Part shown: in pieces, positions 10,041-43,968 of the stretch
Position numbering within the stretch: the first letter of the stretch is position 1
How the letters are laid out: the number at the start of each line of letters is the position of its first letter
NCBI GenBank assembly: GCA_002842145.1
Contig: PHCF01000010.1
Coordinates: 1 to 56,253, forward strand
Length of the DNA stretch: 56,253 nucleotides
Direction: 5' to 3'
From: Betaproteobacteria bacterium HGW-Betaproteobacteria-6
GTDB taxonomy: Bacteria; Pseudomonadota; Gammaproteobacteria; Burkholderiales; Rhodocyclaceae
Translations under genes and position numbers: made by a program
Notes under the pieces: model-generated
Database searches by the model: none
What the model saw: only the letters and a program-made list of their open reading frames with translations
Told to the model about the DNA's origin: nothing

Positions 10041-10280
10041 GTCGAGACGGAAATCTTCGAATTTGAAGGCAAAAATGTCGTTGACCGCAGGATTGATCCA
10101 GATCGTCGGCAGCGGCCTGGTTTCACGGGAAAGCTGGAGTTTTGCCTGGTCAAAATGATTCGAATAAATGTGCGCGTCGCCAAAAGTATGCACAAACTCG
10201 CCCGGCTGGTAGCCGCAGACCTGGGCCAGCATGAGCGTCAGCAAGGCGTAGGAGGCGATATTGAAGGGCACGCCGAGAAA
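10041..10280 (-). pseudogene. thyA: thyA 3' fragment (chromosomal thymidylate synthase, split by the island)
   Basis: Reading on the minus strand from the island edge gives [19 protein letters not shown] and then [21 protein letters not shown] and FKFEDFRLD, which is the C-terminal third of thymidylate synthase. It holds the dUMP-binding Asn (PFN) and the His/Tyr of AHIYSNH. The matching N-terminal two thirds lie at 43454-43968. The fragment has no start codon or own promoter. It also lacks the normal end: after FRLD the usual 14 or so residues ending in Pro-Val-Ala-Val/Ile are absent and the sequence passes directly into the pgi start codon. The remnant is therefore doubly inactivated. Confidence 0.9.
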
Positions 10281-10294
10281 TGCTAACCGACCAT
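10276..10294. repeat. Left attachment site (attL) of the island
   Basis: AGAAA at 10276-10280 is shared with the right junction and is the likely crossover core, as host thyA homology ends here. Next to it, GCTAACCGACCAT at 10282-10294 matches the right-end sequence TTTAAACAACCAT (43453-43441, minus strand) at 9 of 13 positions, as expected for recombinase-binding arms in inverted orientation. Confidence 0.6.
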
Positions 10295-10878
10295 TTATTT
10301 GTTCAATGAATGGTGCTTTCAAGGGAAATGGCTTATTTTCTATTGAACAAAACATCGTTAATGTCTAATCCATCTTGGTTTAAGTCATCCCGACTAAAGC
10401 AGGCGCCGCGTAGCGGTGCGGGTTTAGTCGGGCGACAAGCGAAGCGCGTCAGGCACTTTACTTTAAAGGTACCCTGAGTTTACTTGTGAATTACTCTCGC
10501 ACCAAGTTGGGCTGTATGGTGCTAAAGGATTGTTGCGCGCACCTGGCGACCGCTTATCGAGCATGTCTGAGTTTAAGCGTAAACGGTTTCCAGACGACAA
10601 CTCGCCGGCAAGTTCCCGGCAAAAGCTGAACTTTAGCCGGTCCTCGGAATCGGCTAGCTGTGCTCCGGTTACCTGCCGCTCGGTCGGGAATGGCCTTAAA
10701 CGGCAGCTTCCATATCGATCTTTTGACATGCAATGGGTACATAAAGCATATCGGACAATTTGCACAGAGCACCGAAGAGAGTGTCTCTTATTTCGTCATA
10801 AAATACGTGATCTTTTTGCCTCCGATCGCGAAGCAAAGCAAATATTAAGTCGGCCAATTGCTGGCATTAGAGAACAAC
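10281..10878. other. Island left margin, no recognisable gene
   Basis: These roughly 600 bases contain only short open frames with no family resemblance and no consistent codon bias. They hold the left arm repeat and a long hairpin (10389-10432). A TTGACA at 10723-10728 could be the -35 box of a promoter for the array that starts at 10879; the matching -10 (near gcatat at 10746) is poor. AT content is clearly higher than in either flank. Confidence 0.5.
10389..10432. repeat. Long imperfect hairpin near the island left end
   Basis: CCCGACTAAA at 10389-10398 and TTTAGTCGGG at 10423-10432 pair perfectly, and the interior can extend the stem through GCGCCGC/GCGGTGC around a GTA loop. No T tract follows. 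It could be a recombination accessory site, a terminator acting against read-through from outside, or a small structured RNA; I cannot decide between them. Confidence 0.45.
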
Positions 10879-13800
10879 ATGGACAACGTCTTCCAGTTTC
10901 GGGATCAACTCATCGAAGAGTACAGCACCTTTTCTCGTAGCTTCGTTCGCATACAGGCAAAAGACATCCGAGACGAAATTGCAGACCAATACGAAGCTGG
11001 GCGTTATTGGCCAGAACCACTGATTCAGATCAATCCCAACTATCAGAGAAAGGGGACTGTTCAATCTCTAGTTCAGGAAGGCGTTCTTCATCCGACATGT
11101 GCAGAAATTTTCCAGGTTGGCAAAACTGAAGGGACACCTCAGCCTTTACACCTCTACACACACCAGCTACAGGCACTAGCCAAGGGACAAGACCAGAAGA
11201 GTTTCGTAGTCACCACCGGCACCGGCTCAGGTAAATCGCTATCATTTTTCATTCCGATCATAGATCGAATTCTGAAAAACAAGACCACTGACACTTCGCC
11301 ACGCACTCGCGCCATCATCATTTATCCAATGAATGCGCTGGCCAACAGCCAACTTGAGGAGCTCGACAAATTCCTTCATGGCTATGCGCCCGGACAACAA
11401 CCTTTCACGGTCAAGCGCTACACAGGGCAAGAAAATCGCAGTGAGCGCCAGGCAATCGCTGATAACCCGCCGGACATCCTGTTAACCAATTTCATGATGT
11501 TGGAGTTAATCCTCACCCGCTTTGACGAGGATGACCGGCGTGTAGTTGAACACTGCCATGGCCTGGAGTTTCTTGTTCTCGACGAACTTCACACCTATCG
11601 TGGTCGTCAAGGTGCCGATGTCGCCCTTCTGGTCCGCCGACTGCGCGAGCGCCTTGCGGCCACACAACTGATTTGCATTGGCACTTCCGCAACCATGTCC
11701 AGCACAGGCACCCAGGTTGATCGCAACAGAACCGTTGCCGAAGTCGCAAGCAAGCTATTCGGAACATCCATCACCGAACTAGACGTCATTGGCGAAACTC
11801 TAGACCGAGTGACCGATCCACTACAAGACATCAACGCAGTTCGTACACAACTACCTGCAGCCATCGCCTGCACAGAGTTTTCCTGGCCTGATTTTGCAGC
11901 GTTTCAAAGGGATCCGCTCGCCATCTGGGTTGAACTCAAGCTCGGCATCGAACTTCCGGAAAATGAAGCGCCACGGCGTGCCCAGCCCAAAACCATGGCG
12001 GCCGCCAGCGCACAACTGGCGCACGATGCGGGCTCGTCGTTAGAACAAGCACGTGTCGCCCTGCAGTCCTTTTTACTCGCTGCACATGATGTAAAAACAC
12101 CGCAAGGCCGTCCGCCATTCGCTTTCAAGTTGCATCAGTTCATCAGCGGCCCTGGAAAGGTTTTTTCCACACTCGAGGCACCTCAAAAACGCCATATCAC
12201 ATTAGATGCCCAGCGTTTTGCTCCCGGACGCCAAGCTGAAGCCGTTCAGCTTTATCCCGTTCACTTCTGCCGTGACTGTGGCCAGGAGTACCACCCGGTC
12301 TGGCACTCAAAAAACGAACCGACCAATTACCAACCTCGTGAAATTGACGACATCACGGCCGATGAAGGCGAAGATGCCAGCTATGGCTTTCTCTGCCCCA
12401 TACAACCGGAACAGCAATACCACGGCCAGCCCGAGGATTTACCTGAGATCTGGCTAGACCTCACCAAAGACGACGTCAAAATCAAGGCCAATTACCGCAA
12501 GGCTGTTCCGTATCGGGTATTGGCCGACGCCCAAGGGCAAGATGGACGTGGAGAGCATTACTGGTACATCCCTGGCAAATTCCGCTTTTGCGTAAATTGC
12601 GGGCAGGTACACGAAGCACACGGCAAGGACATGAATCGGCTGGCCAGCCTCTCTGGCGAAGGCCGTTCATCGGCCACGACCATGCTAACCCTTTCAGCCT
12701 TGCGTCAATTATTCTCGCAGAGCGAACTCCCGCCCGGCCTACCCGATCCACGCAAGCTACTTGGGTTTACAGACAATCGCCAAGATGCTGCCCTACAAGC
12801 AGGCCATTTCAACGACTTTGTTTTTCTTCTCACCCTACGCGCCGGCCTGATGGGCGCCTTGCAAAATCACGAAGGGCTGCTTACTGAAGAACAACTGGCC
12901 GATTCCGTATTCAAGGCACTGGGATTTGACCGTACCGACGAAAGCACCCTGGTCGAATACCTACGTACCCCAAAATTGATGGGGCTGGCTCGACAAGAGG
13001 CCCAACGCACACTGCGCTTCATCATTGGTTACCGCCTGTTGCGGGATTTGCGCCGTGGATGGCGCTTCAACAATCCGAATCTAGACCAGCTCAACTTGCT
13101 GGAAATCCGCTACCGCAGCCTGGACAATTTCTGTGCAGACGATTCGGCCTTCACCAAACACAGCACTCTGCAGAAGCTCAGCACCTTCAACCGCATTATC
13201 CTTTGCCAACTTATTTTTGATGGTATGCGCCGTGGCCTCTGCCTTGAAAGCCGCTACCTCGACGCCATTGAACAAGACAAGGCCAAGAATAATGCTTTCA
13301 CTTATCTCAATGAACGCTGGGCTTTCGCCACAGACGAGCAACTTGAAACAGCAAAATACCTGATTCTCGGCAAACGCCCCGAATATAAAGGCAAGCCGCG
13401 GAGTGACCTGGTCACCGGAGGCCCCCGCTCTCGCTTGCTTCGGCAAATCAAAACAGCCCCCTTTTGGAAAAACACACCTTTCGCAACCTTGGCCACAACA
13501 TGGAAGGATGCTGAATGGACTGAACTGGTCGAAGCGCTACTCAATGCGGCCGGCCTATATGGCTATGTACAAAAACATCCCATCGACCAGCACACCGTTG
13601 GTTGGCGCCTCAATGCCAGCGCACTTGACTGGACACTGTTACCTAATGAGGCTGCAAATGAGGACAACAAGGCCAACACCTTCTTCCGCCAGCTCTATCT
13701 CAATATCGCGGAGCTACTCCGCCTCCCGGGCCATCCTCTGTTCAGTTTTGAGGCCCACGAACACACAGCCCAAGTTGACGCGGCTCGACGCCAATTGCTT

Positions 13801-43337: not shown

Positions 43338-43440
43338 TAGCTATCGTTTGTTGTATGCATATGTACATTATTGTAGTTCTAAAATAAACATGGATGTATA
43401 AAAAAACAGACGGAAGGCTTCTGAACTGTACAGAATTTTC

Positions 43441-43458
43441 ATGGTTGTTTAAAAGAAA
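43441..43458. repeat. Right attachment site (attR) of the island
   Basis: AGAAA at 43454-43458 matches the left junction. On the minus strand, TTTAAACAACCAT (43453-43441) follows it and is the imperfect inverted partner of 10282-10294. Host thyA codons resume from here to the right. Confidence 0.6.
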
Positions 43459-43968
43459 GATGTCGGCGCTGCGCTGGTAGAGCTGGCAGGACAGCTTGCC
43501 GTTCGCCACGTAGAACTGGAACAGGCAATGACAGGGCGGCAGCGCCATGCTGTCCACGTCGCCCGGGTTCCAGGCGGAAACGATGTGGCGCCGTGAGTCC
43601 GGGTTGTTCTTGAGGCTGTTGACCAATTGCGTGATCTGGTCGATCAGGCGGCCATCCGGGGTTTCCCAGCGGCGCCACTGCTTGCCGTAGACCGGCCCGA
43701 GGTCGCCGTTTTCGTCGGCCCACTCGTCCCAGATGCGGACGCCGTTCGCCTTGAGGTAGGCGATGTTGGTATCGCCCTGCAGGAACCACAGCAACTCGTG
43801 CACGATCGACTTCAGGTGCAGCTTCTTGGTCGTCATCATCGGGAAGCCCTTGGCCAGATCGAAACGCATCTGCCAGCCAAAGACCGAGCGCGTGCCGGTG
43901 CCGGTGCGGTCGGATTTATCGTGCCCGTTGTCGAGAACGTGGCGCATCAGGTCGAGGTAGGCTTGCAT
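43454..43968 (-). pseudogene. thyA: thyA 5' fragment (chromosomal thymidylate synthase, split by the island)
   Basis: The first 171 codons of the host gene encode [22 protein letters not shown], the [19 protein letters not shown] block, the catalytic Cys in ALPPCH and the Arg of YQRSADIFL. After the insertion point the frame continues into the island, giving an unrelated tail of about 110 residues and no dUMP-binding Asn or His/Tyr. The product cannot be an active enzyme, though the start region and promoter (43969-44144) are intact, so a useless fusion protein may still be made. Up to the break it is very close to the usual proteobacterial ThyA. Confidence 0.93.

Follow-up and report, generated by a model that had tools for sequence, protein, structure and literature searches.

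What becomes of thymidylate synthesis when a mobile island cuts thyA, the gene for thymidylate synthase, in two? This question is raised by a 56,253-bp stretch of Betaproteobacteria bacterium HGW-Betaproteobacteria-6 (Rhodocyclaceae; contig PHCF01000010.1, assembly GCA_002842145.1; hereafter the window), in which the two pieces of host thyA flank an island that carries a complete, different thyA. The original prediction for this locus took the island gene to be the working copy and the island to be self-complementing, a reading that the genome comparisons presented here support. We consider it very probable that the island is a GInt (an already known type of mobile island with the genes ginABCD at one end) of a distinct clade, that it inserts site-specifically in thyA and that it carries a complete replacement thyA behind ginABCD.

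Split host thyA and the island within it

Host thyA (minus strand) is broken at codon 172 of about 264, and a 33,173-bp insert separates its pieces:

43454..43968, minus strand: host thyA 5′ half, codons 1–172 (PF00303 positions 1–178)
10041..10280, minus strand: host thyA 3′ half, without the last 14 codons and stop (PF00303 positions 173–252; 46 bp lost relative to G177)
43454..43458, no strand: copy of the 5-bp direct repeat at the ginA-side junction, AGAAA (TTTCT in thyA sense), from the sequence
10276..10280, no strand: copy of the 5-bp direct repeat at the other junction, AGAAA, from the sequence

The island comprises positions 10281–43453 and one copy of the 5-bp repeat. Read in thyA sense, the halves join as ...SADIFL / GVPFN..., as had been predicted, and the cut falls in the codons of the enzyme's conserved RSxDxFLG motif. 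An uninterrupted thyA, in which ADIFLGVPF spans the site, was found in all seven fetched congeners (G062, G112, G147, G177, G201, G222 and G240; all members of the window's genus within a 249-genome family sample), bearing out the expectation of relatives with an intact, island-free gene; the window 5′ half is 88–93% identical to the same part of their ThyA. All seven have the same upstream neighbours of thyA, and pgi lies directly downstream in four and about 3.6 kb off in G062 and G201; it was not seen downstream of thyA in G112 within the stretch read.

Comparison with the congener G177 revealed a point that the original prediction had missed. The window lacks 46 bp comprising the last 14 thyA codons and the stop, and the 3′ half abuts the start of pgi; the half has no stop of its own, and its frame continues for about 130 codons further. 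The C-terminal tail is kept in all seven congeners and in the 3′ halves of three comparable islands (L082, L084 and L097, described below). Because of this loss, even clean and exact excision of the island should not restore a normal ThyA in the window strain. The flank on this side is marked by two host genes:

8438..10039, minus strand: host pgi, directly after the damaged thyA 3′ half (PF00342)
7969..8445, minus strand: host folA (dihydrofolate reductase), flank marker (PF00186)

The complete 330-residue gene that had been noticed inside the island is confirmed by profile and structure comparisons:

36865..37857, minus strand: island thyA, long-type thymidylate synthase, 330 aa (PF00303 full length; NF010393; 3v8h_A)

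Its product matches PF00303 end to end (1–266), passes the NCBIfam thymidylate synthase equivalog NF010393 (619 bits; cut-off, 576) and aligns over its whole length (1–330) with the solved thymidylate synthase structure PDB 3v8h_A. It is as diverged as had been claimed, with only 35–36% identity to congener ThyA. Hallmarks of ThyA are the catalytic Cys in PPCH, the RSxD motif and a hydrophobic C-terminus, all of which are present in the island copy (C-terminus ...TAPMAV). The ratio of non-synonymous to synonymous substitution rates (dN/dS) is 0.052 between the window and L082 copies, and 0.037–0.042 for three other pairs in which synonymous sites are near saturation. These comparisons point to an orthodox, presumably active thymidylate synthase under strong purifying selection. 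At the cut site the carried thyA differs from the target by 11–15 of 27 bases, so that it is probably not itself a target and would be shielded from the element's own recombinases.

The island copy is the only full-length candidate detected in its genome. Matches to PF00303 occur in three places, all within the window, and no second intact thyA and no ThyX (PF02511) was found in the whole assembly (226 contigs, 93.9% complete, so that this absence is not proof); the original prediction had regarded such a gene as incompatible with its reading.

Between the cut and the island thyA lie four genes of the type that defines GInts:

42201..43337, minus strand: ginA, tyrosine recombinase, 378 aa (PF00589 above cut-off; R and HxxR patterns)
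40379..42220, minus strand: ginB, recombinase-like, 613 aa (PF00589 above cut-off; same-place relatives in L082, L083 and L097)
38424..40388, minus strand: ginC, recombinase-fold protein, 654 aa (PF00589 below cut-off; GinC tree)
37936..38427, minus strand: ginD, small protein, 163 aa (position; relatives in L082, L083 and L097)

From the cut, the order is 116 bases, then ginA, ginB, ginC, ginD, complete thyA and other cargo, with gin and thyA on the minus strand. The main text on GInts (Bardaji et al. 2017, PMC5385486) describes ginABCD at one end, a large and varied cargo, an AT-rich other end and site-specific insertion, in which the window island is alike, as well as short direct repeats. 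Its ginABCD operon, three recombinase-like genes and a small fourth with overlapping adjacent frames, lies at one island end; about 26.6 kb including thyA follows behind ginD, and the last 100 bp of the island have a GC content of 0.34 (flanks, 0.60–0.62; island, 0.541; gin, 0.498; island thyA, 0.53). The perfect 5-bp end repeat is shorter than the imperfect repeats of 10–17 nt reported for GInts. The catalytic residues RHRHY have been reported in GinA and GinB, with GinC lacking the first arginine (PMC5385486); a simple pattern search found R and HxxR in GinA and also in GinC, and neither in GinB. GinD has no Pfam or NCBIfam match. The four gin genes have dN/dS values of 0.060–0.114 (window versus L082). 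A promoter scan over gin–thyA was uninformative (one promoter-like site versus a mean of 6.6 in shuffles).

The same arrangement in other genomes

We scanned an alignment of long ThyA over the genome collection and searched the best 80 of 556 confirmed loci for gin by tblastn with the window gin proteins. Three of these 80 have gin genes: L082 (Dechloromonas metagenome-assembled genome (MAG)), L083 (Rhodocyclaceae MAG) and L097 (Comamonadaceae bacterium OS-4, record titled complete genome). In each of them the host thyA 5′ part is followed by gin and then by the long thyA, and window GinA is 86, 63 and 51% identical to the products of the L082, L097 and L083 genes, respectively. A fourth locus, L084 (Rhodocyclaceae MAG), has a thyA 5′ half and a long thyA with no gin between them, together with relatives of the window's first cargo genes. 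Insertion is at the identical codon in the window, L082 and L097; the L083 junction is lost. Host 3′ halves with the full C-terminus are separated from the 5′ halves by 32 kb in L082, 63 kb in L084 and 48 kb in L097; for L083 only a partial 3′ piece was found, on a separate contig, and it may not belong to the island. No further PF00303 match and no ThyX match was found in these four genomes (the ThyX search covered them, the window genome and the five stand-alone genomes described below). All five islands keep the carried long thyA open over its full length and co-oriented with the broken host thyA, and gin or a host half is damaged in three of them (the window, L083 and L084). L083 has lost most of the thyA 5′ half and part of gin.

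A ThyA tree of 51 rows (49 of the 80 loci, the window and L072; the 31 left out are mostly Achromobacter and Bordetella) places the island copies of the window, L082, L083 and L084 in one set (96/86) with one Accumulibacter copy, which has no gin in its short contig. The L097 copy groups with Comamonadaceae and others; its position apart does not support a single origin of the carried long ThyA, which has probably been gained at least twice. Two other long-ThyA records are observations in their own right: the copy of Pseudokordiimonas caeni (L085, Kordiimonadaceae) is of betaproteobacterial type, 83% identical to the island copy, and was likely transferred horizontally, and that of Pantoea sp. 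18069 (L086, NZ_CACSJA010000011.1) groups with an Acidovorax copy (100/99), so that the record may be mislabelled or contaminated.

A palindrome directly precedes the ribosome-binding stretch of the island thyA:

37870..37887, minus strand: palindrome AGTACCAATTTTGGTACT (AGTACC-n6-GGTACT)

A like palindrome occurs at the same place in L082, L083 and L084, with an outer pair of T–A in L082 and L083 and A–T in L084; it was not found in L097 nor in the 18 stand-alone thyA records examined. It could be an operator or an RNA hairpin.

Long ThyA also occurs by itself. In five of the 249 family genomes (G006, G050, G119, G144 and G157) it is the sole PF00303 match, with 76–82% identity to the island copy, and no ThyX match was found in these five (completeness, 80–100%; two only 80% and 87%). 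These genes occupy the native thyA locus, the stretches read around them contain no gin, and the island palindrome is absent from the four of the five that were examined for it. Since this protein type seems to suffice in nature, long-type ThyA can apparently serve alone. Four other genomes that stood out in the family survey (G089, G040, G077 and G153) were set aside, as they have canonical thyA copies or pieces at contig ends. Separately, five of the 249 genomes have no PF00303 match (G002, G065 (100% complete), G084, G165 (94%) and G179); ThyX was unchecked there.

The strongest result is the recovery of a further island through its gin genes. A GinA profile, blind to thyA, matched only its own gene and that of G571 among 399 genomes of the order (E ≤ 1e-20). 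Only its own match was obtained among 395 family genomes (E ≤ 1e-40) and 369 class genomes (E ≤ 1e-20), and a G571 GinA profile found only itself among 299 genomes of G571's family. A GinC profile recovered the window and G571 (which was part of the model) among 238 order genomes. GinA profile searches score up to 4–5 candidates per genome, and distant members can be missed; among viral contigs, tblastn with GinA gave 28 pattern matches, none of them confirmed. GinA, GinB and GinC of G571 are 27–35% identical to those of the window, and its ginD has no significant similarity to the window ginD. The G571 island (33.4 kb) splits thyA at about codon 210, has gin oriented opposite to host thyA, is adjoined by folA at the 3′ piece and carries a complete ThyA gene of 277 codons and ordinary type behind ginD. 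Six G571 congeners were searched and have one full-length thyA each, with the cut-site motif read intact in four. Other GInts had been suggested as places to look for a nearby thyA, and this proved fruitful: three long-type islands, one island without gin, and G571 with its other ThyA type.

Among 72,556 plasmid records, 25 have GinC matches. In the two best, both Pseudomonas plasmids, ginD overlaps a thymidylate synthase gene, and the Pseudomonas plasmid ThyA has 75% identity to that of G571. None of nine more distant plasmid gin operons carries thyA (tblastn on stretches of about 10 kb; nine of the remaining 23 records read), and by annotation each of these has four genes in gin order. Trees of 15 rows, one for GinC and one for GinA, unite the thyA-bearing rows in a single branch (100/100). 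The megaplasmid thyA of H33, the DNA of which is similar to the plasmid island copy, was rejected as a further case, since the 8 kb read to either side contain no gin. Taken as a whole, these results suggest that one GInt clade has thyA as a fifth core gene.

Alternative explanations and precedents

Several observations weigh against a thyA-targeting, thyA-carrying GInt clade. The window genome is a 226-contig draft, the gaps of which could hide another thyA or thyX. The three gin-bearing long-type islands and the one without gin came from a thyA query, so that the link between the gin clade and thyA rests on G571 and the two plasmids. On those plasmids no split thyA was seen within the 75 kb and 21 kb read, meaning that thyA carriage is not strictly tied to the thyA target, and all that p1_Teo6 retains of the operon is a shortened ginC plus ginD, next to an IS30 transposase. 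The tree program warned of long branches in the GinC and GinA trees. In L084 the cut lies 6 bp further downstream and gin is missing at that end, so that this island is assigned to the group by its thyA type, palindrome and position. Finally, the host halves have low dN/dS (0.048–0.106 in window comparisons) and the 46-bp loss is the sole sign of decay; such values would follow from a split that is recent compared with the divergence.

The island thyA might be ordinary cargo picked up by chance, with the thyA target a coincidence. GInt cargo is highly varied (PMC5385486), and the L097 ThyA lies elsewhere in the ThyA tree than the copies of other islands and hence was acquired separately. However, thyA occupies the slot behind ginD in the window, L082, L083, L097, G571 and the two plasmids, in which the other examined cargo differs, and it is found in none of the nine other gin operons read; separate acquisitions into one slot argue for selection for function, and we judge chance carriage improbable. 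It is very improbable that the host halves together form a working split enzyme that leaves the island gene dispensable or otherwise employed: the halves are open frames with low dN/dS, but the 3′ half lacks the tail kept in seven of seven congeners and runs on for about 130 codons, and for the parallel case of tmk the published conclusion is that neither gene piece contributes (PMC10653934).

Long ThyA could instead spread by ordinary homologous replacement at the thyA locus, where GInts captured it, which is compatible with the preferred reading. In this direction point the stand-alone genes at the native locus of five family genomes (including Rhodocyclus purpureus), the absence of the island palindrome from the four of these that were examined and the long ThyA of many Comamonadaceae and Alcaligenaceae records (among the best 80 of 556 loci). 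Homologous replacement nevertheless leaves the split halves, the fixed slot behind ginD and the other ThyA type of G571 and Pseudomonas unexplained, and we regard it as possible but unlikely. That the island and its thyA were wrongly joined to the host contig is scarcely credible: the genome is a draft, but L082 and L097, the latter titled a complete genome, have the same structure at the same codon.

The preferred reading, a GInt that splits thyA and brings a substitute, differs from what is known of GInts. As described in the main text of the GInt paper, these islands lie at gene ends, between genes or at a gene 5′ end, and the target is probably not completely inactivated (PMC5385486), whereas the window island cuts a core metabolic gene in the middle and carries a full copy behind ginD. 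Neither thyA nor thymidylate occurs in that main text, which was term-searched whole. The nearest precedent is the tmk island of Pseudomonas putida KT2440 and its relatives (Wirth et al. 2023, PMC10653934), which its authors call a first-case example. There, too, a gene of nucleotide synthesis (tmk) is cut in two, and the island brings a dNMPK that was demonstrated to step in for it; copies that stand alone at the target locus are known, and recombinase genes lie close by. The tmk island differs in acting at the dTMP kinase step and in carrying a T4-like enzyme that is not a homologue of the target. The recombination genes published for it encode two tyrosine recombinases, a TetR-like protein and an unknown protein. 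The window island shares the split and the carriage with the tmk island; the replacement function of its thyA is putative. A further published four-gene recombination module is alike in having two tyrosine recombinases and a catalytically incomplete one, and differs in that its authors found it in Gammaproteobacteria only and in having protein clusters distinct from GInts; thyA and thymidylate are absent from the main text on it. We recognised no description of an island that splits and carries thyA in the openly licensed PubMed Central literature as far as that was accessible, and this variant therefore appears new.

Other cargo, course of events and significance

Beyond thyA, the window island carries the following genes:

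10858..31656, plus strand: DruE-like helicase, DpdE/DrmD-like helicase, DrmMI-like methylase, HEC-03A/B, RNA ligase, HNH, PDC-S28 helicase and an unmatched 664-aa protein (Pfam, PADLOC)
34493..35299, minus strand: metallophosphoesterase (PF00149)
36431..36730, plus strand: small helix-turn-helix protein, 99 aa, behind the island thyA on the opposite strand (PF01381)

The block at 10858–25493 (DruE-like, DpdE/DrmD-like and DrmMI-like proteins and the unmatched 664-aa protein) recurs in the L084 island at 34–55% identity. Its order of helicases and methylase resembles that published for ARMADA type I (YprA/DruE-like helicase, BrxHII/RapA-like helicase, methylase; PMC12458937), a likeness of cargo only, which is set by gene order, not phylogeny, and stands apart from the thyA finding. 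The adjacent 25523–31656 segment (AAA protein and partner (HEC-03B/HEC-03A), RNA ligase family protein, HNH protein and PDC-S28 helicase) is possibly a further defence operon. In the L082 cargo, two of eight frames scanned match other candidate defence families, and those scanned in L097 encode, among others, a Prok-E2/ThiF/JAB protein, a patatin, a GAPDH and a PhoX phosphatase. Metallophosphoesterase homologues (37–38% identity) follow ginD–thyA on the two Pseudomonas plasmids, one of which has an annotated helix-turn-helix gene two genes behind thyA, before the metallophosphoesterase; both genes may be steady passengers (plasmid loci L209 16174–17562 and L210 14091–14819).

As the sequence shows, the element has broken host thyA at the conserved-motif codons. 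Such a break would deprive the cell of thymidylate, but we propose that the island thyA behind ginD then supplies thymidylate synthase; this is suggested by its being the only full-length match, by its intact motifs, by the strong purifying selection on it and by the genomes that have long ThyA as the only type found. In GInts, outside transcription enters ginA and likely continues into the cargo (PMC5385486); since all five long-type islands have the carried thyA in the orientation of the broken host gene, transcripts that start at the host thyA promoter could extend across gin and reach it. Circular excision dependent on all four gin genes is a hallmark of GInts, and excision products have changed attachment sites (PMC5385486). 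Within thyA, changes of this kind might do harm, and this would give the island another reason to bring a copy along. If host sequence is then lost, as in the window, the island would become indispensable. In bacteria lacking ThyX, loss of thyA leads to thymine auxotrophy and thymineless death, and with host thyA decayed this should be the price of losing the island, which would thus behave like a toxin-free addiction module. That the island would be hard to lose is consistent with the 46-bp loss and with decay of gin or a host half in two other islands.

On balance, we lean towards a broader view in which thyA is both the fixed fifth gene and the landing site of a GInt clade, the slot having been kept across gin operons of about 30% identity and the ThyA in it apparently replaced by distant types on two or more occasions. 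Such a clade and the tmk/dNMPK islands would then represent a general strategy of target-gene replacement, by which islands become needed and host core enzymes are swapped, and some stand-alone foreign thyA genes at native loci would be island remains. After tmk, thyA would be the second gene for a strategy earlier called a first case. Such islands should be findable through split essential genes with a foreign copy beside recombinases. A mobile island that breaks thyA and provides its own copy would make itself necessary without a toxin, and would open to test one way in which distant versions come to replace core metabolic genes.

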